Below, piece after piece: positions 15,381 through 56,503 of a stretch of 64,000 nt of DNA. The notes beneath the pieces are model-generated. The model ran no database searches. It saw nothing but the letters and a program-made list of their open reading frames with translations, and was not told the DNA's origin. Where the stretch lies: the NCBI GenBank assembly GCA_022822725.1, contig JAJEAN010000007.1, positions 936,382 through 1,000,381 of the forward strand. The letters are read 5' to 3'. The stretch comes from Candidatus Latescibacterota bacterium (GTDB lineage: Bacteria > JAAXHH01). A program made the position numbers and the translations under genes. Within the stretch, counting starts at the first letter, position 1. Every line of letters starts with the position of its first letter.

Positions 15381-16496
15381 ATGGACAGGGTCAGGGTGCT
15401 GGTGGGCACTAAAAAAGGGGCGTTTATCCTCTCGTCGGATGGCGCGCGTAAAGACTGGCAAATCGACGGTCCGCATTTTGGCGGTTGGGAAATCTACCAT
15501 ATCACCGGATCCGCGGCCGATCCGGATCGCCTGTACGCTGCACAGGGTACCGGCTGGTTCGGGCAGTTGCTGCAGCGCTCGGACGATGGCGGAAAGAGCT
15601 GGAACCCGGTGGACAATGAATTCACCTTCGAGGGAGAAGCGGGCACCCACCTTGACTTCGACGACACCCCGTGCCCCTGGGAATTCAAGCGGGTCTGGCA
15701 CCTCGAACCTTCGCCGTCCGATCCGGATACCGTATTCGCCGGCGTCGAGGACGCGGCGCTGTTCCGTACCACGGACGGGGGTCGGTCCTGGCATGAACTC
15801 GCCGGCCTGAGAAACCACCCTTCGAGCGAGGGCTGGCATCCCGGCGCGGGCGGGCTGTGCCTGCATACCATTATCCTGGACCAGGGCGACCCGAACCGGT
15901 TGATTGTCGCGATTTCCGTGGCCGGTGCTTTCCGGTCCCTGGACGGCGGTAAATCGTGGGAACCGATTAACAGGGGCCTGCATTCCGATTACATCCCGGA
16001 GCCCGAGGCGGAGGTGGGCCACTGCGTCCATCGCCTCGCCATGAACCCGTCCCGTCCGGACGTGCTGTTCATGCAGAGCCACCGGAACATCATGCGCAGC
16101 GACAACGGGGGAGATTCCTGGACCAATGTGAGTGGCAACCTGCCCAGCGATTTCGGCTTTCCCATCGGCGTGCACGCCCACGAACCCGAGACGATCTACG
16201 TCGTCCCGATGAAGGGCGATTCCGAGCACTACCCGGACGAAGGCCACCTGCGCGTGTACCGGAGCCGGACCGGGGGAAATGAATGGGAACCCCTGTCTTC
16301 CGGACTGCCGCAGAAAAACTGCTACGTCAACGTCCTGCGGGACGCCATGGCCGTGGATGTGCTCGATGACTGCGGGATTTACTTCGGAACTTCCGGGGGT
16401 GCGGTCTACGTGTCTCCCGACGGTGGCGACCACTGGACGGCCATCGTGGAGAACCTCCCGCCCGTGATGTCCGTCGAAGTCCAGACGCTCTCATGA
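15381..16496 (+). CDS. BNR/sortilin-like beta-propeller protein
   Basis: The 371-residue protein is made of repeated Asp-box blades such as [50 protein letters not shown] and [12 protein letters not shown]. This is the layout of cytoplasmic WD40/YVTN/BNR propellers often annotated as exo-alpha-sialidase, but I see no signal peptide and no sialidase arginine triad that I can assign. The ATG follows AAGGAG. Its stop overlaps the start of a MoaD/ThiS-like gene (ATGA), which implies translational coupling and a joint function. Confidence 0.85.
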
Positions 16497-16795
16497 TACG
16501 CGTCGTATTGCCCTATCATCTGCGGAACCTGGCGGGGCTGCCCGGCAAGGAAATCACTTTAGAGGTCGAGGCCGGGATCGTGACACAGCGGAAGATCCTC
16601 GACGCCCTGGAAGCGCACTTTCCCCAACTCGGGGGAACGGTCCGGGATTACGGTACCGGCGCGCGCCGGCCCCTCGTAAGGTTCTTCGGCTGCGGCAGGG
16701 ATCTTTCCCTCGAACCGCCCGACGCCCCGGTTCCGGACACCATCGCGCGGGGCGAGGAACCATACCTGATCGTGGGCTCGGTGGCCGGCGGGTAG
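16493..16795 (+). CDS. MoaD/ThiS-like ubiquitin-fold protein
   Basis: This 100-residue protein has a beta-grasp layout and ends in SVAGG. The C-terminal Gly-Gly is the hallmark of MoaD, ThiS and small archaeal modifier proteins, where it is adenylated and thiocarboxylated or conjugated. The gene starts inside the stop codon of the propeller gene (four-base overlap). No E1-like MoeB/ThiF gene and no molybdopterin or thiamine gene is in the window, so the partner enzyme is unknown and a plain MoaD role cannot be assumed. Confidence 0.82.
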
Positions 16796-16839: not shown

Positions 16840-19083
16840 TCATTTCAACATATCCGCGATATCGCTGTGCCCTGCCTTCTGCGCCCGGGCCAGGGGCGTC
16901 GCCCATTCCGCGGCGCCGCCCCTCGGGTTCGCACCCCGGTCCAACAGGAAACCCGCCAGTTCCCGGTGTCCCCAGTGCGCCGCCCAACCCAGCGGCGTGG
17001 AACACCACTCGTCGTCGACGGCTTCCAGGTCGGCCCCACGGTCCAGCAGCAGGGCGGCTTTCTGCACGTCTCCGATCGCCGCCAGCTTGTGCAGGTAGGT
17101 CACGCCGTGCCAGTTCGCATTATTCGGATCGGCGCCGTGGTCGAAGAACAGGTTCAGCATGTCCAGGACATCTTCGTTGGGATTCATGCTGGCGCCGTTC
17201 AGACTCCAGCCTTTCCTCCGGCGGAACGCGTAGCCCATGTAGTTGTTGGCGTACCACGGCCGGTTCAGTTCGGCGCCCGCGCGGATCAGCATTTCGATGA
17301 TCTCCCTGCTGGCGAAACCGGCCGCCATGCACAGCACCCCGTAGTCCCCTCCGAAATTGGCCAGACCGGGGTCCGCGCCAAGGAGTTCCCCTACCACGGG
17401 TATATTGTCCAGCAATACGTACATGCTGATTTCCGCCGTGGCGCCGTGGCGATACAACAGGTTGATCATTTCCGTGTTATTCTTGCCCAGGGCCTGCGTC
17501 AGCGGATTCCCACTGGATTCCACCTGGGCATTCGGGTCGGCGCCGTGATCCAGGAGCAGTTTCGCCGTATCCAGGTGATTGCCCGCCACGGCTTCGTATA
17601 ATGCATGTCCTCGGGGTGCGTTGCGTTCGGGGGCATTGGGGTCCGCGCCATGATCGAGCAGAAGCTGCACGATTTCCGTATTCCCGTGGCAAGCAGCGCT
17701 GAAGAGCGGAGAATACCTGCAGGTATCCTGATCGGAGGCTGCACTCCGATCCCCGGAGAGCAGTTCCCTTACGCGCCGAATGTCACCCAGGAGGCAGGCG
17801 ACCGTCATGCTGTACTTCGCTCCCCTGGCAATCAGGTATCCGGTCAGGAGCGGATTGGCCAGCCCGTGTCGTTTCCTCGCATGAAACACGGCCAGGTGCA
17901 GGGGCTTGCATCCATCCCACCGGACGGGATCGGGTTCCGCGCCCCGGTCCAGGAGCAACTCGGCCATATCCAGGTTGAACGCTTCAACGGCCGCGTGCAA
18001 AGGGCGGGTGCCCCTTTCATCGCTTGCGTTTACGAGTTCCGGGGAAGCGTCGAAAAACGCACGCGCTTCCGCCAGATCGCCCCTGCGAACGACTTCGCAG
18101 GCGCGTTCGCCCACGGGAGGCGAGTCGTATCTGGATTCGATAGCGTCGGTCAGAAGCCCGGCAATTTCATTGAAACCGCGATCCCTGGCCCGCTCCAGAG
18201 GCGTTACGTGGTATTCCAGCCCCGAGTCCTTCGACGGATTCGCACCGTGTTCGAGCAACAGGCGCACCACATCCGTGTGGCCTTCCCTGGCGGCGAAGTG
18301 CAGCGGCTGGTAGTAGGCCCAGTTACAGTTGGCCAGCCCGGAATCTTCTTTCAGCAATTGCTCCACGCGAACCAGGTCACCCTCCGCAGACGCCAGCAGC
18401 ATGTCCCACACTTTGTCTGGCTGGCCATCCATGAAATTTCCCTGCTCGTTCGAAAAATCAGGTCGTATCCATTTCATAATGCGGTCTCCGAATGCATGGT
18501 CTGATGACGGCGCGAAATCTTCAAGGTCTTTTGACAACACGCGGAGCAGTTGCGGCTTCAGCTTGCCCCTCGCTTCGTACAGCCTCTTGCGCACCGTGCC
18601 CGGTCTCAAGTCCATGAATCGCGCGATTTCAGCCGCCGAATAGTCTCCAATATACCGCAGTAACGTTACTTCTCTTAAAGTTTCGGGCAATGCCGCGACC
18701 GTATTACGTACCTTTTCACTGATATCTCTGCGCGCTACCCGTTCCAGCGGATCTTCACGCTCCGATTCCAGGTCACCCCTCATGGGAACAAGACAGCTAT
18801 GCCTGCTTCTATTGAACCGGTAACACTGCCACTGAATTATCCTTCTGAGCCAGGCCGGAAACGAATCGGGCTCACGCAGCGACCGGATGTTCTGCCAGGC
18901 CGCTAAAAAACCTTCCTGCGTGGCATCCTCAGCAAGGTGACGTTCTCCCAGCAGACTCAGCGCGTATCCGAAGGCCATGTCCTGGTAGTGAACCACCAAC
19001 TTCCCGAAGGCGAGGCTGCGATCCGAATCGGGAATCGTTGTATCGGTGGAAATCTGTATATACTGTTTGAGATCGTGGGTCAT
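16840..19083 (-). CDS. ECF sigma factor fused to an ankyrin-repeat array
   Basis: The protein is 747 residues. Residues 25-95 are sigma-70 region 2 (MAFGYALSLLGERHLAEDAT, then FPAWLRRI), which binds core polymerase and the -10. Residues 128-180 are region 4 with a helix-turn-helix (YSAAEIARFMDLRPGTVRKR). From about 221 to the end there are roughly a dozen ankyrin repeats such as PLHFAAREGHTDVVRLLLEH, several of them degenerate. ECF factors are usually about 180-200 residues and use a separate anti-sigma factor; none is adjacent here. The ankyrin part could hold or release the sigma domains in response to a partner, but that is inference. There is no transmembrane segment, so it should be cytoplasmic. 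The ATG has no strong ribosome-binding site. Confidence 0.9.
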   Translation of the reverse strand: MTHDLKQYIQISTDTTIPDSDRSLAFGKLVVHYQDMAFGYALSLLGERHLAEDATQEGFLAAWQNIRSLREPDSFPAWLRRIIQWQCYRFNRSRHSCLVPMRGDLESEREDPLERVARRDISEKVRNTVAALPETLREVTLLRYIGDYSAAEIARFMDLRPGTVRKRLYEARGKLKPQLLRVLSKDLEDFAPSSDHAFGDRIMKWIRPDFSNEQGNFMDGQPDKVWDMLLASAEGDLVRVEQLLKEDSGLANCNWAYYQPLHFAAREGHTDVVRLLLEHGANPSKDSGLEYHVTPLERARDRGFNEIAGLLTDAIESRYDSPPVGERACEVVRRGDLAEARAFFDASPELVNASDERGTRPLHAAVEAFNLDMAELLLDRGAEPDPVRWDGCKPLHLAVFHARKRHGLANPLLTGYLIARGAKYSMTVACLLGDIRRVRELLSGDRSAASDQDTCRYSPLFSAACHGNTEIVQLLLDHGADPNAPERNAPRGHALYEAVAGNHLDTAKLLLDHGADPNAQVESSGNPLTQALGKNNTEMINLLYRHGATAEISMYVLLDNIPVVGELLGADPGLANFGGDYGVLCMAAGFASREIIEMLIRAGAELNRPWYANNYMGYAFRRRKGWSLNGASMNPNEDVLDMLNLFFDHGADPNNANWHGVTYLHKLAAIGDVQKAALLLDRGADLEAVDDEWCSTPLGWAAHWGHRELAGFLLDRGANPRGGAAEWATPLARAQKAGHSDIADMLK

Positions 19084-19192
19084 TGGCGGTTACAAAATGG
19101 TCAACATTCGTATTGGTCTGTACTTCCCGTTCTGGTACATTAGTGTCGATTGCCGGAACCGGCGTTACAAATTCAAGGAAAGGAGTCGTACG

Positions 19193-28472: not shown

Positions 28473-30041
28473 GTGCCTGCATCGCCATCTACGGACGATT
28501 CGTCCCGGGTCCGGACCTTACTGGCCCACAGGGGAAGGCTGGCCTCCCTATTACGTCCCGATCCGACTTTGTTTGAACGGATTGGCGGCCGGTCCGTCGT
28601 CGCCCGTATCATCGACGGCCTGTACGACCGGATCGAGGACGATGACAGCCTGCGGGCCATGTTTACGCGTACCCTGACCTCCGAGCGCATGAAGCAGAAG
28701 GCGTTCATGGAGGAGTGGATGGGCGGCGAGCCGGACTACACGCGCCACCACGCCTACGGCGGCATCCGAAACCGGCACGGACATATCCATATTACACGGG
28801 CATCCGCCGACCGGTGGCTTTCGCATATGTCCGCTTCCCTGCGGGATCACATCGGCGAGGAACCGCTCGTGGAGGAGGTGCTCGACACGCTCAGGCCTCT
28901 CGCCCACGGACTCGTCAACGAGGAGAAGCCCGTCCGAAACAAGTGGGAAATGAGATGTCACCGGGAGAAGCGGTGGAGACAGCCGGCCAAGATGGCGGCC
29001 AGGGGCCAGGTGGAAGCGTTGAAGCGGCGACTGGATGAGGAACCCGGTATACTGGATGATCCCCGCCACGGCGCGATCATCCTCGGCGAAGCGGCGTCAA
29101 GGGGCCATACGCCGGTAGTGGCGCTGCTGCTGGATCATGGGGTGGACGTGAACATACCGTCCGCCCATGCAAGCGATATCATGATGACCGCCCACTGCGC
29201 CGCACGGAGCAGGAAGAAAGAGGAAACCGCCGATTTTCTGCTGGAACGCGGCGCCGTGTACGACGTCTTCAGCGCCTGTTTCCTCGGCGACCTGACCCGG
29301 GTTTCCGAGCTGCTGGAGGAGGAACCCGGCCTGGTCAATGCACACGACCCCGCCTGCGACCTGCTGCCCGTGACGCCCTTGCACCATGCCGTGTACGGCG
29401 GGCATGAACAAGTCGCAAGTTTCCTGTTTGACCGGGGCGCCGAGACCGGTGTGAACAGCACGGCCCTGGTCGGCTACGCCGCGGGGCACGGGCAAACAAC
29501 CCTGGTCCGGTTGTTACTGGAACACGGTGCGGACGCCACGAGGATCGGTTGCGGCCGATGGGTACTGGATGACGAAGAGGCTGCCCTGCTTATCGCCCGT
29601 GGCGCCGATGTCAACTACCCGGAAGGCAATTGGATCTGGACGGCCTGTACCGGGAACAACAGCCAGCGGGACGATCCCGCCTATGTACAGGCCTTACTGG
29701 ACAGGGGAGCCCGGATCGACACGGTGCTGCGCGGCGCCGGGGCCCTGCACTTTGCCGCAAAGGCCGGATTCACGGGAGTCATGGAAGTGCTGCTGGACAA
29801 CGGGGCACCGGTCGACGCACCGAGCGAAAAGGGCGAGACGCCCCTGTTTTACGCGTTGAAGGCGGGACCCAGGGCGGACATGGTGAAGTCTGTCGATCTG
29901 TTACTTTCCCGTGGCGCGGCCCCGACCCAGGAAGATAGCCAGGGCAAGACGCCCCTCGCCATTGCCCGTCGAATGAAGCGTCCCGACAGGGAACGCATCG
30001 TAGCACTGTTCGAAGCCGCTATTCCTCTTGCGACGGCGTAA
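28473..30041 (+). CDS. Truncated haemoglobin fused to ankyrin repeats
   Basis: The protein is 522 residues. Residues about 32-140 form a truncated (2/2) haemoglobin of the group II/trHbO type: FERIGGRSVVARIIDGLYD (Tyr B10 at 51), the haem-proximal histidine expected at H102 in RNRHGHIHIT, and TrpG8 at 115 in DRWLSHM. From about 165 to the end are ankyrin repeats, for example AAKAGFTGVMEVLLDNGAPV. Group II globins bind oxygen or NO; here the globin may gate binding of the ankyrin part to a partner, which is inference. I use GTG 28473 with GGAGG upstream. The 3' end overlaps the convergent ankyrin gene by 23 bases. Confidence 0.88.
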   Translation: MPASPSTDDSSRVRTLLAHRGRLASLLRPDPTLFERIGGRSVVARIIDGLYDRIEDDDSLRAMFTRTLTSERMKQKAFMEEWMGGEPDYTRHHAYGGIRNRHGHIHITRASADRWLSHMSASLRDHIGEEPLVEEVLDTLRPLAHGLVNEEKPVRNKWEMRCHREKRWRQPAKMAARGQVEALKRRLDEEPGILDDPRHGAIILGEAASRGHTPVVALLLDHGVDVNIPSAHASDIMMTAHCAARSRKKEETADFLLERGAVYDVFSACFLGDLTRVSELLEEEPGLVNAHDPACDLLPVTPLHHAVYGGHEQVASFLFDRGAETGVNSTALVGYAAGHGQTTLVRLLLEHGADATRIGCGRWVLDDEEAALLIARGADVNYPEGNWIWTACTGNNSQRDDPAYVQALLDRGARIDTVLRGAGALHFAAKAGFTGVMEVLLDNGAPVDAPSEKGETPLFYALKAGPRADMVKSVDLLLSRGAAPTQEDSQGKTPLAIARRMKRPDRERIVALFEAAIPLATA

Positions 30042-31230
30042 TCCCTTCCAGGTAGGACACCAACGCTTCCCGCGCAGGCGTTGAACCATGAATTTCAATC
30101 CCGACCCGCGCCCACACCAGCGGCGTCGTGCCGTGTTCATCGTCCGTCGCGCCTGGATCTGCGCCGGCCTCGACGAGTGCCTTCGCGATCTCCACGTCCC
30201 CGCACAGATGCAAGGGCGTCTGACCTGAATCCGCCCGGGCGTTCGCGTCCGCACCCCAGCCAAGCAGCGCATTGACGGTCTCTTCCTGCCCATGCTGCAC
30301 CGCGGCGTGCAGCGGCGTGCCCACCACGGCGTGAACCCCGATCTTTCCTCGGTATCCGATCAGATCCACTTCGGTCTCTCGAAGTTTTTCTAGCCGATCC
30401 GTCCGTCCAAGCGCGGCAAGTTGACAGGCGTCGGCCGGCGCACCGCGGTCGATCAGGTAATCCGCCAGACCGCGGCAACGATCTCCACGGCCTATCGCAG
30501 TGCCGAGCGGCGTGTTGCCTTCGCAGTCTCGCGTATCCAGCTGCGCTCCATGGTCGAGCAGGATGCCTGCCGTTTCCGCGGACACGGCCACGTGAAGCGG
30601 CGGTTCTCCGCCCAGTCCCGGCCGCGATGCGGCTTCCGGATCGTCCGCCAGGATCGCCGAAACGCGGCGGACGTCGTCCAGCAGGCATGCGGCATGGATA
30701 TCGACTTGGGCGCCGCGTTCCCGCAGCAACGCGGCCGCTTCCATGTGACCCCAGTGCGCGGCAAGGTGCAGGGCCGTCCATCCGCCGTAGGTGTCCGTAC
30801 CGCCGTCTGGTTCCGCCCCGCTATCCAGCAAGAGACTGATCATGCCGGCCTGGCCCCGTTCGGCCGCCAGCTGTATAGGCGTGGGCAAACCTCCCCACCG
30901 GGGATGGGACACCGCGTCATTTACGATTCCACCATCCTGTTTCAGCACCTTCGCGGCGGCTGTCCTGTCGCTACGCCAGATGGCACTGCGCAGCCGGCGA
31001 CGGTTCACTTCCCGGCGGAGGACGGGCCAACTCGGGAATCCGTAACTCCGCGCAATGACCAGTTGGGCGTCGGTCAGTTTGGCCGTGGAAGGATCAATCG
31101 TACGAGGGTGCGCGGCAAAGACTTTAAGCGCGTCTGCGTCACCCGAACGAAATGCATTGAGGAGTTCCCTCGCCTGGGTTTTGAGCTGATCCAGGTCGGG
31201 ATCCAGGGGAAGCTTGCGAGGATTGTTCAT
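30019..31230 (-). CDS. Ankyrin-repeat protein with the shared N-terminal module
   Basis: The 403-residue protein begins with LPLDPDLDQLKTQARELL and, some 40 residues later, DAQLVIARSYGFPSWPVLRR. This N-terminal module recurs in the ankyrin proteins at 49590, 50981 (weaker) and 54983. Residues about 110-400 are ankyrin repeats (PIQLAAERGQAGMISLLLDS, TALHLAAHWGHMEAAALLRE). There is no signal peptide or membrane segment. Ankyrin arrays bind proteins; the partner is unknown. It converges with and overlaps the globin-ankyrin gene by 23 bases. Confidence 0.88.
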   Translation of the reverse strand: MNNPRKLPLDPDLDQLKTQARELLNAFRSGDADALKVFAAHPRTIDPSTAKLTDAQLVIARSYGFPSWPVLRREVNRRRLRSAIWRSDRTAAAKVLKQDGGIVNDAVSHPRWGGLPTPIQLAAERGQAGMISLLLDSGAEPDGGTDTYGGWTALHLAAHWGHMEAAALLRERGAQVDIHAACLLDDVRRVSAILADDPEAASRPGLGGEPPLHVAVSAETAGILLDHGAQLDTRDCEGNTPLGTAIGRGDRCRGLADYLIDRGAPADACQLAALGRTDRLEKLRETEVDLIGYRGKIGVHAVVGTPLHAAVQHGQEETVNALLGWGADANARADSGQTPLHLCGDVEIAKALVEAGADPGATDDEHGTTPLVWARVGIEIHGSTPAREALVSYLEGITPSQEE

Positions 31231-36857: not shown

Positions 36858-38567
36858 TCAGGAAACGGCGCCGGCATCCCGCAGCCGGTCCGCGACGGCA
36901 ACATGCCCGTACCGTTCGGCCCAGGCAAGCGGTGTGGTCCAGGATTCCCCATGGGGCTGCGGATCGGCGCCATGCTGAAGATACAGTTCGACCAGGTCCT
37001 CGCGGGCCCAGCGAGCTGCCCAGGCAATCGGCGTGGAATGGAGCAGCGAATCCCTGCCGTCGAGCGAAGCGCCGAACTCGAGGAACATCCGGGCGAAGGT
37101 GATTCGCTCTTCGTCGGTCAAAACCGGTTCGCCCCAGACTTTGCCGGTGGCCGCGACATGGTGCAGCAATGACGTGTTGCGCCGGCCTTTCACGTTCGGA
37201 TCCACCCCGTGTTCAAGGAACATCCGCACGATCTCCGGAAAAACGGAGCGATCGAAATCCCGGAACTTGCGGTGGGGGCAGCACGGCCACAGACGAATAG
37301 GCTGGATGATCAGTCCATACCAGCGCGGGTCGTCCGGCGCCCAGTCCAGTTTGCGCAGGCACACGCCGACGACGCTGGGATCGCCACCGCAGGCGGCGCC
37401 CCACAGGATTTCCTCCACCAGGTCGGGTTTAAGGTTCAGGGCCATGACCGCGGCCGAGGTGTCGCATTCCAGTGCCGCGCCGTCCGGCGTCATCGTTCCC
37501 CCGTAGCGGTACAGCAATCGCTTCATGCGTTCGTCCCGGTTGTTGTAGGCGCGGCTCATGGGATTGCCGGAAGCGTAGACGGCGGCGTTGGGATCGGCGC
37601 CCCGTTCGAGCAGCAACTGCGCGATATCGTGCTGGCCGTCGCCGGCCGCGATCCACAGCGGTTCGCCCCAGTTGTACGTCTCTTCCTCCAGGGACTGGAT
37701 GCGGTACCGCTGGTCCGGGTCCATGCCGAGGTCCAGCAACAGCTTCACCATGTCGTACCGGTTATGGCGGACTGCGTCGCCCAGTAAGTGGGTTTCTGTT
37801 GCAATATCCGGTTCGAACAGATCGGGATGACTCGCGGCGACCTCGCGTACAGCTTCCGCGTCTCCCAGCATCACGTTCGTTCGCAGGCTCCGGGGAGCAC
37901 CCGCGCTCATGAGGATGCCGGCGGCCATGAAACACCCTTCCGACCGCCGCCGGTCCGTCGCGGCCGTTAGATCTACGGCCAGTTCGAGGGGGGTCCGGCC
38001 TTCGAGGTTGGTCTTGCCCGTGTCGGCTTTGACAGATAGCAGCGCCTGAACGAGTCCGGGATGTCCGTGGCTGGCCGCGTGGTGCAGGACCGTATTCCCG
38101 TCTTCGTCGCAGGCCTCCGCGAGTTCCGGCGCGGCGTGGATTTGCCGCATCGCACCGGCCACGTCACCGTCCGCGACTATCTCGGCGAGTCGCACCACTT
38201 CCGGTGAAACGGTCAGATTCGGGCAGAGGTTCGCCTCGCGCCTCCGCTCCAGCTCCTCATTGATCGTTTCAATGACATCATCGAATCCGCGGTCGCGCGC
38301 CATGACCAGAGGCGTGGACGCGTCCCTGTGGGGATAGACCCCCTGGTTGGGATCGGCGCCCGCGGACATGAGCGCGGAAACGGCTTCCGTCTGGCGGTTT
38401 ATCACCGCGTGGTGCAGGGCGCGGTGCTCGTCGTAGGACGCCGTATCCACCCCCACCAGGTGGGGGGCGACGGCCAGAATGGTATTCAGGCGTTCCATGT
38501 CGCCACCGGCCGATGCCTCGCACAGTTCGGCCACGGTGAAGGCGCCGGATGTCGTCTCGTTAGTCAT
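36858..38567 (-). CDS. Ankyrin-repeat protein
   Basis: The 569-residue protein is ankyrin repeats almost throughout (HRALHHAVINRQTEAVSALM, TVLHHAASHGHPGLVQALLS, PLWIAAGDGQHDIAQLLLER). Its C-terminal cap (STPIAWAARWAREDLVELYL then TTPLAWAERYGH) matches the cap of the sigma-ankyrin protein, so the two are related beyond the generic repeat. A Cys/Trp-rich stretch (RLWPCCPHRKF) lies at about residue 430. The start ATG overlaps the stop of the AHSA1-type gene (ATGA), which implies translational coupling. Confidence 0.9.
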   Translation of the reverse strand: MTNETTSGAFTVAELCEASAGGDMERLNTILAVAPHLVGVDTASYDEHRALHHAVINRQTEAVSALMSAGADPNQGVYPHRDASTPLVMARDRGFDDVIETINEELERRREANLCPNLTVSPEVVRLAEIVADGDVAGAMRQIHAAPELAEACDEDGNTVLHHAASHGHPGLVQALLSVKADTGKTNLEGRTPLELAVDLTAATDRRRSEGCFMAAGILMSAGAPRSLRTNVMLGDAEAVREVAASHPDLFEPDIATETHLLGDAVRHNRYDMVKLLLDLGMDPDQRYRIQSLEEETYNWGEPLWIAAGDGQHDIAQLLLERGADPNAAVYASGNPMSRAYNNRDERMKRLLYRYGGTMTPDGAALECDTSAAVMALNLKPDLVEEILWGAACGGDPSVVGVCLRKLDWAPDDPRWYGLIIQPIRLWPCCPHRKFRDFDRSVFPEIVRMFLEHGVDPNVKGRRNTSLLHHVAATGKVWGEPVLTDEERITFARMFLEFGASLDGRDSLLHSTPIAWAARWAREDLVELYLQHGADPQPHGESWTTPLAWAERYGHVAVADRLRDAGAVS

Positions 38568-39073
38568 GTCTGTTTCTCCTCGTCCGACATGTCACTGTCG
38601 TCGTTGCCCGTGACCAGGTGACCGTACCGATCCGCGTAAGTCTTCATCAGGTTGTCGTATCGGTCTTCTACCGTGGTCCCGGCCATATACGGTCCCAGGT
38701 GGTCGATGAAGGCGTGCCAGCCCGCTGCGAATCCCAGGAGGATATCGGGCATGGCGTGGGAATTCGTGAATCGAAGCCGCGTACCGCCTTCACAGGGTTC
38801 GAGCTCCCATCTTACCACGGAGAGACCCCAGGTATAGGCGAACACTCGTTCAGGCACCCATTCACAGACGGTCCCCTCCAGGCTGCCTTCCGATTTGAAA
38901 TCCACGAAGATCCTGCCGCCGATCCGGCGCTCCAGCGTGGTCTCGTATTTCATCCACGAAGAGATCCCGTCCGCCGTCGTGACGGCCTCCCAGACCCGGG
39001 AGACCGGATGGGCGTACGTTCGTTCGATTTCTATACAGTATTCCGGCGTTATCCTGGCCAGCGATTCTGCCAT
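38564..39073 (-). CDS. AHSA1/SRPBCC-type protein
   Basis: The protein is about 169 residues with the START/Bet v1-like AHSA1 fold: YCIEIERTYAHPVSRVWEAV at the N-terminus, IGGRIFVDFKSEG in the middle, and GWHAFIDHLG near the end. Such proteins bind hydrophobic ligands or act in stress responses. It is coupled to the ankyrin gene downstream by a four-base overlap. I use ATG 39073; no strong ribosome-binding site is visible. The C-terminal tail (DDSDMSDEEK) is acidic. Confidence 0.85.
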   Translation of the reverse strand: MAESLARITPEYCIEIERTYAHPVSRVWEAVTTADGISSWMKYETTLERRIGGRIFVDFKSEGSLEGTVCEWVPERVFAYTWGLSVVRWELEPCEGGTRLRFTNSHAMPDILLGFAAGWHAFIDHLGPYMAGTTVEDRYDNLMKTYADRYGHLVTGNDDSDMSDEEKQT

Positions 39074-39222
39074 GGCGATCACGTTTATTTAGTGCCCAAA
39101 AGCAAAGGTGCCGTTACAAAAAACTGAAGCCTCGGTGCGGGATTCATAATACTCAAGGGTAGAAACCGCGGCCCGGTTGACTACGGGGACCGGTTTCGCC
39201 GGCAAGTATGTCGACGTTTGTA

Positions 39223-39251: not shown

Positions 39252-39278
39252 TGTTTATCGGTATTATGGGAGATGAAA

Positions 39279-40073
39279 ATGCGGTTTGACAAGGAAAAAC
39301 AGTGGATCGGCGCCGTGTACGCCGGCGACCTCGAACTCATGGCCGATATGCTGGCCGAAGACCCGTCGTTGGCGGACTTCAGGCATGAAGCCCTCGACGA
39401 TCCGTACCGCGAAGGCCGCTTTCCCGTCGCCACCCTGGCCTTTGCCGTGTGTGGACCGCCGCATCAGCAGATAGATTGGCGCCAGGTCGAGCGAAGGCTC
39501 AACTTCGACATGGTGAAACTGCTCGTCGAAGCAGGTGCCGACCCCAATATCGACAACATCCATGGACGGCCACTCTGTCTTTGTCGGGACGAAGGCATGG
39601 CGCGGTACCTGATCGACCACGGCGCCGATATCAACCTGTGGCACGATAACGGCGGCGCGCCCGTCTACTTCTCGGTCTGGCAAATCGATCCGGAACGGCT
39701 GAAGATGCAGATCCGGCTGGGAGCCGATCCCGGACAGATCAATCCCCACAACGGTTCATCCGCTTTACATTCCGCCGCGGAAGTCAGGCCAGGTGACGAA
39801 CATCTTGCCGATCACCTCGAAACCATTCGCATGCTGAAGGAAGCCGGCCTGGATCCCAATCACCGGGCGGGAATCGGCGTTCAGTCGGACTGGGGCCCCG
39901 TCTACCAGGGCGATGCGCCGCTGCACATGGCCGCCCAGTTGAACAGGCCCGAAGTGATCGAGGCGCTGATTGCCGCAGGTTGCGACCGGTCACAGACCAA
40001 CGTCGCCCATGAAACGCCGCGCGAAGTAGCCCAGCGGGTCGGGCGAGGCGAGGACATCGTCCGTCTGCTATAG
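39279..40073 (+). CDS. Ankyrin-repeat protein
   Basis: The 264-residue protein has ankyrin repeats such as MVKLLVEAGADPNIDNIHGR and PLHMAAQLNRPEVIEALIAA. There is no signal peptide, and no fused domain is seen at the N-terminus. I use ATG 39279 because GGGAG lies six bases upstream; an ATG two codons earlier overlaps that site. It is divergent from the AHSA1-ankyrin pair and is followed by a short tandem repeat. Confidence 0.87.
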   Translation: MRFDKEKQWIGAVYAGDLELMADMLAEDPSLADFRHEALDDPYREGRFPVATLAFAVCGPPHQQIDWRQVERRLNFDMVKLLVEAGADPNIDNIHGRPLCLCRDEGMARYLIDHGADINLWHDNGGAPVYFSVWQIDPERLKMQIRLGADPGQINPHNGSSALHSAAEVRPGDEHLADHLETIRMLKEAGLDPNHRAGIGVQSDWGPVYQGDAPLHMAAQLNRPEVIEALIAAGCDRSQTNVAHETPREVAQRVGRGEDIVRLL

Positions 40074-48424: not shown

Positions 48425-49297
48425 ATGGAAAACGGATCCGACGGTTCTTTCCTTTCGATATTTGAACGCGGCGACCTGGCAGCAGCCCGGACCTATATCG
48501 ACGCCCATCCATCTATTGGGCGATACGACGGCTACGAAGCGCACCCGTTGCTGCGGGAGTTCGTACGTCGGAATCACGGACATTGTAATAAGCCCGCACA
48601 CCGTACCATCGCCGATCTGCTGATCCCCGATAGGGTCCGTACTTTCAGAGATGTCGTAATGTCGGACCGGATCGAAGACGTCCGTGCTCAACTGGCAGCC
48701 GACCCGAAACTGGCTCGCGCCGAGTTCACCGGAGGCCGGGGGATCGCCCAGGCGGTACATCACTGGAAGTCCATCCCCGCCGGCAAGCTGCTCCTGGATA
48801 GCAGCGCCGACGTAAATGCCCTGACCACGGTGGGTTGCTTGGGCGAGACGCCGCTCATGATGCAACTGAGATTCGGCACCCTGGAAGGTGCGCGTTTACT
48901 CCTGGAGCGGGGAGCCAACCCCAATCTGGGCGGACTTAAGCATACGCCCAGCAGGTCGATGGCAGAGGCACTTGCACTGTTGATTCAACACGGGTGGGAC
49001 ATCAACGAACAGGTGGGTTGCCGCACGCTGCTCCATCATGACGCCAATCACGGCCATGGCCGGAGGGTCCGTCTCCTGCTGGAGCACGGCGCCGACCCGA
49101 ATATTCGGGATGCCGAAGGCCGAACGGCCCTGCACCTGGTGAGTGCGCGGGGCGTCGGCGGGGAGGCGATCCGGGCCCTGGTCGATGCCGGCGCCGATTT
49201 GAACGCCCGCGATCAGGCGGGCAAGACCCCGTTGGACTATGCCGAGTCGGCAAGAAGCCAGGTAGCTACCCGTGCGCTTACGGCGCTTGGCGCCTAG
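48425..49297 (+). CDS. Ankyrin-repeat protein
   Basis: The 290-residue protein has about six ankyrin repeats, clear ones being ETPLMMQLRFGTLEGARLLL and TALHLVSARGVGGEAIRALV. It lacks the shared N-terminal module of the two ankyrin genes that follow. There is no strong ribosome-binding site, so it may be translated with the membrane-protein gene upstream. It opens the densest ankyrin cluster of the window. Confidence 0.87.
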   Translation: MENGSDGSFLSIFERGDLAAARTYIDAHPSIGRYDGYEAHPLLREFVRRNHGHCNKPAHRTIADLLIPDRVRTFRDVVMSDRIEDVRAQLAADPKLARAEFTGGRGIAQAVHHWKSIPAGKLLLDSSADVNALTTVGCLGETPLMMQLRFGTLEGARLLLERGANPNLGGLKHTPSRSMAEALALLIQHGWDINEQVGCRTLLHHDANHGHGRRVRLLLEHGADPNIRDAEGRTALHLVSARGVGGEAIRALVDAGADLNARDQAGKTPLDYAESARSQVATRALTALGA

Positions 49298-49589: not shown

Positions 49590-50831
49590 ATGTCGGAATC
49601 CGCCGTTGTACAACTCCCCGATCAACCCGATCTGCGCCACCTGAAAGACCAGGCGAAAGACCTGGTGCGGGCTGGATCCTGCCCGACGCTGGCCGATGCG
49701 CTGTTCAGCATCGCGCGCCGGTACGGTTTTCCCAGTTGGCCGAAGCTGAAGGCCTACGTAGGGTCCGTCGGGTCCATGGGGGAGCTCGAACAGGCCATCC
49801 TCGAAGACGATGCCGGCCGGGTAAGGGACCTGCTGGCCGAGGACCCCGGCCTGATACACCGAGAGGGGCACTGGGTCAGGCGCCGCCGCCACAATGGCTA
49901 CCGCCCGCTCGCTTATGCCGCGTTTTTCGGAAAGTCGAAGGTCATGGAAGTCCTGATTGCCGCCGGCGCGGATGTGCATGAAGGGGGAGAAAGGGCATTG
50001 CGTGCCGCGGCGTACTTCGATATAAACATGAGCGCCGTCGATCTGCTGCTCAACCACGGCGCCGATCCGAATGCAACGACGGTATCGCCGTCCGGCCGTC
50101 CATACAGGGTAATCGACTATCCCTGCATGACGCTGGCGTCCGGGATGTTGCGCCACCTCGTGTCGCATGGCGGCAGGCTGCTGCCGGAAAATGCGGGCAT
50201 GATCCTGTCCACCAATGAGCGCAGACCACAGGATAAGGCCGATTGTCTTCGCGTCATGACGGAAGCGGGGTTCGCGTTGCCGGACACGCCGCCCATGGCC
50301 CTGCACCGGAGGGATACCCGGCTCCTGGAAGCGCACCTGCGCAGGGATCCCCAGATGACGTCGCGCCTGTTCTCGGAAAGGGACGTTTTCCCATCTGGGT
50401 TCGGTATCGAACTCCCTTCTCCGTACGCCTACGTGACCCCTCTTTCCAGCGGGGTTACCCTGCTTCACATAGCTGCCGAATTCTGTGATGTTGAAATGGC
50501 CCGGTGGCTCCTCGAACACGGTGCCGATGTCAATGCGCCTACCGGTATGGACCGGGGCGGGTTCGGCGGCTGGACGCCCTTGTTTCACGCCATGGCCACG
50601 CTGCACGTGCCGCGACATTTTCCCGACATGGCGGAACTGCTCCTCGAGCGCGGCGCCGACCCGGCGGTCAGGGCGTCCATCAGAAAGCCGGCCGCGGACG
50701 GCGGAGAGACGACCTGGAACGACGTCACGGCCGCGGATTACGCCCAACAGTTCATTGAACCGGATCTTGTTAATCACGAAGCCCTGCAGCGAGTGTCGCA
50801 GGCAGTCGAGAGAAGTAACGGGGCCGATTGA
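49590..50831 (+). CDS. Ankyrin-repeat protein with the shared N-terminal module
   Basis: The 413-residue protein begins VVQLPDQPDLRHLKDQAKDL and has FSIARRYGFPSWPKLKAYV about 45 residues in: the same module as the proteins at 30019 and 54983. Ankyrin repeats fill the rest (PLAYAAFFGKSKVMEVLIAA, TLLHIAAEFCDVEMARWLLE). AAGGAG precedes the ATG. A short hairpin (GCTGAA/TTCAGC) lies in its leader at 49531-49547. The next ankyrin gene follows after about 150 bases. Confidence 0.9.
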   Translation: MSESAVVQLPDQPDLRHLKDQAKDLVRAGSCPTLADALFSIARRYGFPSWPKLKAYVGSVGSMGELEQAILEDDAGRVRDLLAEDPGLIHREGHWVRRRRHNGYRPLAYAAFFGKSKVMEVLIAAGADVHEGGERALRAAAYFDINMSAVDLLLNHGADPNATTVSPSGRPYRVIDYPCMTLASGMLRHLVSHGGRLLPENAGMILSTNERRPQDKADCLRVMTEAGFALPDTPPMALHRRDTRLLEAHLRRDPQMTSRLFSERDVFPSGFGIELPSPYAYVTPLSSGVTLLHIAAEFCDVEMARWLLEHGADVNAPTGMDRGGFGGWTPLFHAMATLHVPRHFPDMAELLLERGADPAVRASIRKPAADGGETTWNDVTAADYAQQFIEPDLVNHEALQRVSQAVERSNGAD

Positions 50832-50980
50832 CGAAGCCGAATTACGGTCCGAATTACGAGGTCGGTGACGGGGCCGATTGACGTAGACGGCCGGTGTCCT
50901 GTTTCAAGCTCAGGAGAGCAAACGATCCGGTAACGATCCGTCCTGGATTCGCAGCGGGTTTACCAACACAAAACGAGCAC

Positions 50981-52810
50981 ATGACAGCTAACCATCATAG
51001 TCCTACCAGAACGTGGCCCTACCCGGTTGTTCAAGTCGATGTCGAGCGCGAAGCCCTGAACCTGTTCCAGGGGTACAGATCCGGCCAGGCTGAGGCTGTG
51101 GCGGATGTCCACCGTTATGGATCCTCCACGGATCCTTCATCCTTCGATTTAGCCGATGCCCGGGACGTGCTGGCAAGGAGTTACGGGTTTCCGGGCTGGG
51201 CACAGGTGGAACGATACTTCCAGACGGTAGCAAACTTCTCGCGCAGTCCCAACGTGGAACCCGCGTCCCAGGAACGGCGCGGCACGCAGGAACGCGCTAG
51301 TGATTTCCTCCGTCTTGCCTGCCTGACCCAGGGTGCCCAGGATCACCCGTCGAGATGGACCAGGGCCAGAACCATGCTGGATGCCCGTCCGGAACTTTCC
51401 TGGACGAGTATCTACACCGCCGCCGCGGCCGGCGACGTTTCGGCCATGGGTGATTTCCTGAAAGCAAATCCTGAACTGGCGAAGACTCCCGGTGGTCCCC
51501 ATGACTGGGAACCCTTGCTTTACGTGGCCCTTTCGCGTCTGGACCACGGTACCCCGAAAAATTCGGCCGTCGAGGTCGCCCGTTTATTGCTTGACCATGA
51601 TGCCGACCCGAACGCGGGCTATCTCTGGGCCGGGTTCCCCTGTCCCTACACCGTCCTTACCGGCGTGTTCGGCGAGGGGGAAAACGGTCCCGCCAGGTGT
51701 CCGCCGCACCGGGACTGCTATGAACTCGCCGAGATCCTGATCGATGCCGGTGCCGATCCCAACGACGCGCAGACACTCTACAACCGGATGTTCAGCCGCG
51801 ACGACGGACACTTACGTTTCTTGTTCGCCCACGGACTTGGAAAGGAAGGGAACGGGCCCTGGCACAGGTTGCTGGGCGAGCAGTCACGCGGCTGGGTGGC
51901 CGATCCGGACGACATGCTGGCCTATCAACTGCAGTGGGCCGCCCGATGGAACTACCCGGAAAGGGTCAAGTTGCTGGTCGAAAACGGGGCCGACGTAAAC
52001 CGACCATCCAATCGGCCCGATGCGCGGTCACCCTACGGGGAAGCCGTCTACCACGGGAACCAGGCTATTGCCGAATACCTTGCGGCTTGCGGCGCGGAGA
52101 CCTTTCCGCTGGAAGACCCGGACCGGTTCGCGGGTGCATGCATCAGTGGAGACGCGGAACGTGCCCGCGCCTTGCTTGCACGCGATCCGTCGTTGATAGA
52201 CAAATTGGGAGCACGCGGAAACGCCCTCATGGAGAACGCCATCGGATCGGACAACCGGGACGCGGTCCGACTGATGGCCAAATTGGGCTTCGACCTGAAC
52301 GCCTTCGGCATGCACGACGCAGCCCGTTACGGCCATCTGGATATGATTAAACTTCTAGTCGAGCTCGGTGCCGATGCCTCTCAAAAGGAACCGGGCCACG
52401 AGATCAGTGCCCTGGGCTATGCCAGCCACTACCAGCAGGAACACGTGATCGGCTACCTGGCGCAGTTTGCCGGGATTCACCGGGCCGTGCAGTCAGACCT
52501 GCTGGACCGCGTTCGTGATCTGCTCGAAAACGACCCCACCTGCGCCGGCGAACAGGACGCCGATGGGAACACGCCGCTGCACTGTCTTGACGTGGACAAC
52601 CGGATGGAAGATACGGAGGAGATACTACGTTTGCTCGTAGCCCACGGAGCCGACGTCAACGCCAGGAACAAGGAAGGCCTGACTCCGCTAGACAGGCTGG
52701 AGCGTCTTACGGGCATCAGCAAAAGAGACGACCTGGCCGAACGGCTGCGTGGGTACGGAGCCGTGGAATCAGATTCCAGCGGCGAGTCCAGGGACCACCC
52801 GGTGTCCTGA
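50981..52810 (+). CDS. Ankyrin-repeat protein with a related N-terminal module
   Basis: The protein is about 609 residues from ATG 50981; a GTG at 50894 would add 29 residues. The N-terminus has EALNLFQGYRSGQAEAVADV and ARDVLARSYGFPGWAQVERY, a weaker form of the module. Ankyrin repeats follow to the C-terminus (AARYGHLDMIKLLVELGADA, TPLHCLDVDNRMEDTEEILR). A Gly/Pro-rich segment (PGGPHDWEPLLYVALSRL) also occurs in the protein at 54983 (KGGPKDWPPILYATWS), so these two share an interior region as well. Confidence 0.88.
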   Translation: MTANHHSPTRTWPYPVVQVDVEREALNLFQGYRSGQAEAVADVHRYGSSTDPSSFDLADARDVLARSYGFPGWAQVERYFQTVANFSRSPNVEPASQERRGTQERASDFLRLACLTQGAQDHPSRWTRARTMLDARPELSWTSIYTAAAAGDVSAMGDFLKANPELAKTPGGPHDWEPLLYVALSRLDHGTPKNSAVEVARLLLDHDADPNAGYLWAGFPCPYTVLTGVFGEGENGPARCPPHRDCYELAEILIDAGADPNDAQTLYNRMFSRDDGHLRFLFAHGLGKEGNGPWHRLLGEQSRGWVADPDDMLAYQLQWAARWNYPERVKLLVENGADVNRPSNRPDARSPYGEAVYHGNQAIAEYLAACGAETFPLEDPDRFAGACISGDAERARALLARDPSLIDKLGARGNALMENAIGSDNRDAVRLMAKLGFDLNAFGMHDAARYGHLDMIKLLVELGADASQKEPGHEISALGYASHYQQEHVIGYLAQFAGIHRAVQSDLLDRVRDLLENDPTCAGEQDADGNTPLHCLDVDNRMEDTEEILRLLVAHGADVNARNKEGLTPLDRLERLTGISKRDDLAERLRGYGAVESDSSGESRDHPVS

Positions 52811-54982: not shown

Positions 54983-56503
54983 ATGCCGTCCCTGCCCCCA
55001 AATTCCGATCTACGCCATCTCAAGCTGCAGGCTAAAACGCTGCTGAAGTCAGCCCGCGGTGGCGATGAGGATGCCACCGAAAGGATCCGTTCGGCCTCCG
55101 GCGGCCGGCGCGAGCGCATCGTGCTGTCGGACGCCTATCATGCCGTCGCCAGGGAATACGGGTTCAGGTCCTGGCCCCATCTCAAGATCCATCTCGAGAT
55201 CGCCGCCAAGAGTCTGGAAGAAAGACTGGACACGTTTCTGTCATCGGCCTGGCTGTGGGGCGACCGGAAACGCGCCGAGGCCGTGCTCGGTTCGGCACCG
55301 GAACTTGCCGGGGCAGATATCTACGCCGCCTGCGCCGCCGGAGACACGGATGCGGTCTCGCGCATCCTGGAGACCAATCCCGCCGCGGCCACGACGAAGG
55401 GCGGCCCGAAGGACTGGCCCCCGATCCTCTACGCGACCTGGTCCTGCTTCCTCGCAGAGCGCACCGACGCCATGGTCCGTATTCTTGAACTGTTGCTGCG
55501 TCACGGCGCCGACCCGGACAGCTACTGGGTGAACGAGTCCGACTGGAAGGAGTCGGCGCTCTACGGATGCGTGGAGAACAACTGCGTGGCGGCGGCCCGG
55601 GTACTGGTGGACGCGGGCGCCGACCCCAACGACAACGAATCCCTCTACCACGCCTGCGAGAAATTCAATCTCGAACTGCTCGACGTTGTTGCGGTAAACG
55701 GTCTGGATCCAGAGGCGGTTTCCTATTGCATCAAGCATGCCATGGATATGAACTGGACAGAGGGGATCCTTTGGTTCCTCGGCCAGGGCGCGGCCCCCAA
55801 CGCGCTCCATCCCGCCGACAACGAAACGTCCCTGCACTGGGCGGTAAAGAGAAACTGTTCGATCGACGTGATCGGCGCGCTGCTAGATGCCGGGGCGGAT
55901 CCCAACGCGCGTACGTCCACCGGGAAGAGTACGTCCCTCGGGATCGTCGGCTGGACGCCGCTCGACTTCGCCATGCGGCTCGGTCGCGGGGATATCGCGG
56001 AACTCCTCCGGCGGCATGGTGCGGCGCCGTCCACCCTGTCCGAATACGACCGCTTCGTGGTCGCCTGCGCCAATGCGGACCGGGACGTCGTGGAGGACCT
56101 GAAAGACCGCAATCTGGCCGGCCTGACCGACGACGACCGGACCCTGATCAGCCACGTGGCCCAGGTGGACAACTGGGCGGCGGTGCGTCTCATGGCGGAA
56201 CTGGGCTGGCCCATAGACGCCCGGGGCTGGATGAATGCCACGCCCCTCTACTGGGCCCTGTGCAAGGGCCAGCCCGAAATGGTCGGTTTCCTCCTTCGGC
56301 AGGGCGCTTCCACCGATCCTATCGGCGGGTATTTCCAGCATCCGGTACACGCCGTCACGCACTGCCAGTGGTATAGCGACAGGGGGAATTACCCCGCCGC
56401 GCTCGAACTGATCCTGGAACACGGTGCGGCGATTCCGGACGGGTTCTACCCCTGCGGAAATGCGGCGATAGACGAAGTCCTTACTCGCTACATCGAGGAC
56501 TGA
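54983..56503 (+). CDS. Ankyrin-repeat protein with the shared N-terminal module
   Basis: The 506-residue protein begins LPPNSDLRHLKLQAKTLL and carries YHAVAREYGFRSWPHLKIHL about 50 residues later, the clearest copy of the module. Ankyrin repeats include TSLHWAVKRNCSIDVIGALL and TPLYWALCKGQPEMVGFLLR. AAGGAGG gives a strong ribosome-binding site, right after a perfect hairpin. It stands alone behind the tandem-repeat region and is divergent from the AraC regulator. Confidence 0.9.
   Translation: MPSLPPNSDLRHLKLQAKTLLKSARGGDEDATERIRSASGGRRERIVLSDAYHAVAREYGFRSWPHLKIHLEIAAKSLEERLDTFLSSAWLWGDRKRAEAVLGSAPELAGADIYAACAAGDTDAVSRILETNPAAATTKGGPKDWPPILYATWSCFLAERTDAMVRILELLLRHGADPDSYWVNESDWKESALYGCVENNCVAAARVLVDAGADPNDNESLYHACEKFNLELLDVVAVNGLDPEAVSYCIKHAMDMNWTEGILWFLGQGAAPNALHPADNETSLHWAVKRNCSIDVIGALLDAGADPNARTSTGKSTSLGIVGWTPLDFAMRLGRGDIAELLRRHGAAPSTLSEYDRFVVACANADRDVVEDLKDRNLAGLTDDDRTLISHVAQVDNWAAVRLMAELGWPIDARGWMNATPLYWALCKGQPEMVGFLLRQGASTDPIGGYFQHPVHAVTHCQWYSDRGNYPAALELILEHGAAIPDGFYPCGNAAIDEVLTRYIED

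Follow-up and report, generated by a model that had tools for sequence, protein, structure and literature searches.

The gene at 16840–19083 of the window (the whole stretch of 64,000 nucleotides that was analysed) joins an ECF sigma factor to a long array of ankyrin repeats, and it raises the question of how such a sigma factor is controlled and which promoters it serves. The source genome comprises 3.8 Mb in 9 contigs, and the bacterium is probably a sponge associate, which fits the literature on Latescibacterota. Judging from sequence, we hold with moderate confidence that the protein is a self-contained one-component ECF factor, regulated by its own extension, which would drive its own gene and an operon encoding an SRPBCC protein and a further ankyrin protein. 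The fusion gene is laid out as follows.

16840–19083, minus strand: the whole ECF sigma–ankyrin fusion gene, with an ATG start and 747 codons (747 aa) without an internal stop (Pfam)
18802–18999, minus strand: sigma-70 region 2 (residues 29–94), AED..QE..F core intact (Pfam PF04542 and alignments)
18559–18717, minus strand: sigma-70 region 4 (residues 123–175), helix-turn-helix (Pfam PF08281)
18421–18543, minus strand: linker (residues 181–221) with an APSSDHAF motif (sequence comparison; low AlphaFold confidence)
16843–18420, minus strand: ankyrin array (residues 222–747), of the same family as stand-alone arrays (Pfam; AlphaFold pLDDT mostly 80–95)
17227–17352, minus strand: the most conserved ankyrin fingers, GGDYGVLCMAAG...RPWYANNYMGYA (residues 578–619), largely invariant as far as Paenibacillus

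Pfam recognised Sigma70_r2 (PF04542; E 2e-14, 53.4 bits against a cut-off of 24), Sigma70_r4_2 (PF08281; E 1e-11, 44.4 bits against 25.7) and, from about residue 230 to 747, multiple consecutive ankyrin repeats (Ank_2, PF12796, and related models; E 6e-50). The uninterrupted reading frame and these matches bear out the initial annotation, which had described sigma-70 regions 2 and 4 followed by more than 500 ankyrin residues in a single frame; the ankyrin part amounts to about 525 residues, and a short linker separates it from region 4. The gap between regions 2 and 4 is 28 residues, and no region 3 or region 1.1 domain was found by Pfam between or before them, so that by profile matches the protein is an ECF (group 4) sigma factor; the TIGR02937 sigma70-ECF model scored it at 77.7 bits against a cut-off of 42.9. 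The AED..QE..F core of region 2.2, through which sigma factors contact the polymerase, is kept and aligns with solved ECFs, e.g. SigW; loss of the polymerase-binding residues of region 2, named in the initial annotation as grounds for rejecting a functional fusion, was not observed. An xPSxxDxF-like motif after sigma4 also occurs in most other ankyrin fusions of the phylum and in fusions to VOC domains.

Full-length orthologues (residues 1–747, 77–79% identity) were found in 10 of the 11 other genomes of the genus, and in the eleventh (G009) residues 149–747 and 1–144 lie on separate contigs with the contig break between them. A sigma-ankyrin gene is present in all 16 phylum genomes compared, counting a shorter fusion of 418 aa in one of them (G014). 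Because the full-length form is conserved across many separate genomes, a chance fusion or an assembly join can be ruled out. We also considered whether translation from an internal ATG could yield the ankyrin part as a protein of its own. The SD-like sequence preceding the internal ATG proved to be present only in the window and absent from the ten orthologues compared; a separately initiated ankyrin product is therefore unsupported, and with it the two-protein alternative that had been raised earlier. Purifying selection acts on both halves of the fusion: pN/pS was 0.20 in sigma2, 0.16 in sigma4 and 0.175 in the ankyrin part, whereas the two linkers reached 0.42 and 0.41, and residues 575–625, which contain the conserved fingers, gave 0.03. 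Six members of the genus also carry a further sigma-ankyrin paralogue (L064–L069), directly downstream of a one-domain GlnE-like gene and in the same direction.

In the aligned upstream DNA of the orthologues, a bipartite promoter-like element, GTAAC-N16/17-G(A/G)(C/T)ACT, was visible 84–104 nt before the fusion start, and its AAC is typical of ECF -35 boxes. The same type of element stands before a second operon in the window.

19142–19168, minus strand: GTAAC-N16-GACACT, a promoter-like element lying 85 nt before the fusion start codon and seen in each of the 10 inspected genus members whose upstream DNA is intact
39091–39117, minus strand: GTAAC-N16-GGCACT, the corresponding promoter-like element before the SRPBCC-ankyrin operon (pattern scans and inspection)
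38564–39082, minus strand: SRPBCC (AHSA1) gene, first in the predicted co-regulated operon (36858–39082), conserved in 10 genus loci (Pfam)
36858–38567, minus strand: stand-alone ankyrin protein of 569 aa, whose array belongs to the same family as that of the fusion; its start and the SRPBCC stop overlap

When 11 whole genomes of the genus were scanned with GTAACRCCN{13,14}GRYACT, 15 matches were obtained, 11 at the fusion and four before the orthologous SRPBCC-ankyrin operon, and TGTAACN{15,17}GRYACTA gave 16 (seven and nine, respectively); since the patterns were built from the sigma-ankyrin promoter, only the SRPBCC matches are independent. Neither scan of the 11 genomes gave a match beyond these two loci, and the reversed control patterns gave 3 and 10 matches. 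By direct inspection the element was found before the SRPBCC gene in the window and in ten relatives, one of them with a GCCACT variant. It ends near the SRPBCC start codon, so the leader would be very short if the element is the promoter. No clear form of the element was seen upstream of the fusions in other genera. Another sigma factor among the 12 other ECF-like matches of the genome could also read it.

In the mechanism that we propose, the sigma2–sigma4 pair would bind core RNA polymerase and recognise a GTAAC-type promoter, while the array, carried on flexible linkers, would stand in for a separate anti-sigma factor; a ligand or partner recognised by its conserved finger surface would determine the amount of free sigma. 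The predicted targets are the fusion's own gene (autoregulation) and the operon of the SRPBCC protein and the stand-alone ankyrin protein, the latter possibly a feedback partner. We infer three points: the element is the promoter of the fusion's sigma, the array gates the sigma, and there is a ligand or partner. This reading offers a concrete, testable regulon of two promoters.

Among the flanking genes tested with Pfam (VOC, HhH-GPD, BNR, DinB and one untyped ORF) none matched an anti-sigma family, in agreement with the earlier remark that no anti-sigma factor is adjacent, and the 100-aa ORF at 16493–16795 beside the fusion matches no Pfam family. Control by an extension has precedents. At least 26 ECF groups with extensions are known, including the repeat types TPR (ECF42) and WD40 (ECF57), and the review describing them does not mention an ankyrin extension (PMC8999054). 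The fusion resembles ECF42, ECF57 and the SnoaL-bearing ECF41 and ECF56 in that sigma2–sigma4 is followed by a C-terminal module and no anti-sigma factor is present, and it resembles the first two also in that the extension is a repeat protein (PMC8999054). It differs from ECF42 in the size of the extension (about 525 residues of ankyrin versus about 200 residues of TPR; PMC8999054), in the C-terminal repeats themselves (Pfam finds ankyrin and no TPR) and in the absence of the adjacent YCII/DGPF gene among the flanking genes tested, and from ECF41 in the absence, by Pfam, of the SnoaL-like C-terminal domain. Ankyrin arrays would be a further kind of module that may serve in place of an anti-sigma factor.

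MzaA, the MZA anti-phage sigma-70 protein (NCBIfam NF041931), also appears from profile matches to combine ankyrin-like repeats with a sigma-70 domain, although in the opposite order (ankyrin at about 6–100, sigma at 462–718). Its sigma part matches four other genes of the fusion's genome (E down to 4e-78) and not its ECFs, which suggests a primary-type sigma. The fusion does not belong to this family, having scored 78 bits against the NCBIfam equivalog cut-off of 800; membership of a defence system was likewise rejected, the matches (MzaA; PADLOC PDC-M72A and Ankyrin) being driven by the ankyrin repeats. Those neighbours of the fusion that have Pfam matches fall in families other than MZA. 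Literature searches for MzaA returned unrelated papers only.

The structure of the fusion was predicted with AlphaFold using an 18-row alignment (pTM 0.64). The pLDDT was about 81–90 in sigma2 and about 67–79 in sigma4; most of the array exceeded 80, with ankyrin helix pairs at high values over most of residues 222–747; the linkers at residues 95–115 and 184–216 were below 50. This pattern is consistent with flexibly tethered domains, whether or not they dock. Additionally, the most constrained ankyrin surface, GGDYG-LCMA...PWYANNYMGYA...NWxGVTYLH, is common to Paenibacillus arrays that have no sigma domain, and it is therefore probably directed at some ligand or partner that is not the fusion's sigma, so that sigma gating is not its sole possible role.

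These results bear on the suggestion in the initial annotation that the ankyrin part acts as a built-in anti-sigma factor. In this special form of array gating, the repeats would fold over sigma2/sigma4 and keep them from binding polymerase, and cleavage or displacement of the repeats would lift this block. The suggestion agrees with the lack of a separate anti-sigma factor among the flanking genes tested, and extension-regulated ECFs, some of them released by proteolysis, provide a precedent (PMC8999054). However, it was not borne out, as two AlphaFold runs gave no confident sigma-ankyrin contact or domain arrangement and the most conserved surface is the one shared with sigma-free arrays; we consider it rather unlikely. 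A weaker candidate still is an array that serves as a scaffold or localiser rather than as a sensor, with the sigma active whenever it is made and its control transcriptional only. Flexible linkers without confident docking would suit such a role, as would the autoregulation suggested by the conserved upstream element and the occurrence of the array module without a sigma; on the other hand, the persistence across the genus of both highly constrained modules in a single chain suggests coupling, and unrestrained autoregulation would tend toward runaway, which makes this explanation quite improbable in our view. 

The array also has a history of its own. The stand-alone arrays of Paenibacillus and Bacillus are 44–46% identical to that of the fusion and contain an identical PWYANNYMGYA segment, whereas their proteins have no sigma domain and no sigma was recognised in the adjacent ORFs inspected. 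In the array tree we counted seven changes between the fused and the stand-alone state, at least five of which are forced by well-supported branches. One genome (G013) carries several broken forms. In one of them the sigma and the array are split by a stop and a frame change, which could be an assembly error; a second array retains only a region-4 stub of the sigma, and a third fusion (L074, 1768–3858) has sigma region 4 and the ankyrin array, with region 2 missing. In the first two forms the stand-alone array still begins with the linker motif found after sigma4 in the fusions. Read in this way, the relics appear to show loss of the sigma half from fusions. Alternatively, the ankyrin part could be the main actor, for instance in contact with the host, a role that has been suggested for other ankyrin proteins of sponge symbionts, with the sigma domain a decaying passenger. 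Such a view would fit the array family standing alone in several lineages and the lost or broken sigma in the G013 copies, but sigma2 and sigma4 are constrained as much as the array in the genus, the cores of regions 2 and 4 are intact and secretion is hard to square with a sigma domain, so we give this view hardly any weight. If the favoured reading holds, genome surveys of sponge symbionts that tally ankyrin proteins as host-directed effectors may be counting some cytoplasmic transcription regulators among them.

In the sigma tree, ECFs extended by ankyrin, DUF1835, VOC, PheS-like, NMT1-like and GNAT-like modules formed one clade (support 93/94); the modules were assigned by Pfam or an ankyrin profile, the GNAT-like one from sequence reading only. 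All 28 sampled clade members have a C-terminal extension, with no plain sigma inside the clade among the sampled rows, a pattern that is suggestive, because the rows of the tree were picked by similarity. The DUF1835- and VOC-fused ECFs of Paenibacillaceae resemble the fusion in belonging to this clade, the VOC types sharing a PSRDxxF linker, but differ from it in that their C-terminal module is not ankyrin. We tentatively suggest, as a fair possibility, that the clade is a general one-component platform with a constant sigma2–sigma4 half and an interchangeable C-terminal module (ankyrin array, DUF1835, VOC, PheS-like synthetase core, NMT1-like binding domain or GNAT-like). Through its module, each type would place transcription under the direct control of a different ligand or partner, and the ankyrin version in this lineage would command a two-locus ankyrin regulon. 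One sigma lineage with swapped C-terminal modules, the PheS-like one included, would offer a route to study how sigma factors gain new inputs.

Several clade members and related proteins can be recorded here. In L287 (1408–2760), L288 (763–2004) and L289 (1426–2733), all in the same sigma clade, the ECF carries a phenylalanyl-tRNA synthetase class II core-like domain (PF01409, lowest E 2e-38). Two clade ECFs of one Paenibacillus-family genome (L263, 4729–6666; L264, 5950–7818) are fused to VOC (glyoxalase) and have a middle region that is LamG-like by eye, and an IMG/VR contig (L271, 1456–2874) encodes an ECF with an NMT1-like solute-binding domain. Kinship of the VOC gene neighbouring the fusion with the VOC domains of the Paenibacillaceae fusions was rejected, no significant similarity having been found. 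The window's own genome contains, on contig 4 of G000 (L188, 6841–10929), a tandem pair of ECFs of 623–624 aa with a C-terminal region of unassigned type.

The initial annotation had proposed a search for other proteins joining sigma-70 regions 2 and 4 to ankyrin repeats, and these were found across the genus, the phylum and two unrelated lineages. The latter (G154 and G342) emerged from a search of 384 genomes sampled throughout the domain; as only two candidates were scored per genome, further fusions may have been missed and the number outside the phylum is at least two. Among 68 genomes of the phylum of G154, a fusion of about 540 residues occurs in 7, from three families, with 40–60% identity to the G154 protein. 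The family of a Paenibacillus genome, represented by 105 genomes, yielded stand-alone arrays and other extended sigma factors but no sigma-ankyrin fusion. A phage or plasmid origin was rejected, no record, viral contigs included, covering both halves of the fusion. Foldseek gave generic ankyrin proteins among the matches listed. The earlier statement that no characterised protein has this layout agrees with the literature searched: no paper in open-access full text describes it, which is weak evidence, most subscription papers lying outside that scope.

Finally, the fusion lies at one end of an ankyrin-rich stretch (16840–56503) with at least nine ankyrin ORFs, containing 9 of the 11 strong Ank_2 matches of the genome.

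16840–19083, 28473–30041, 30019–31230, 36858–38567, 39273–40073, 48425–49297, 49590–50831, 50894–52810 and 54983–56503: ankyrin ORFs of this stretch

One of them, at 28473–30041, encodes a protein of 522 aa that combines a truncated (bacterial-like) globin domain with an ankyrin array.
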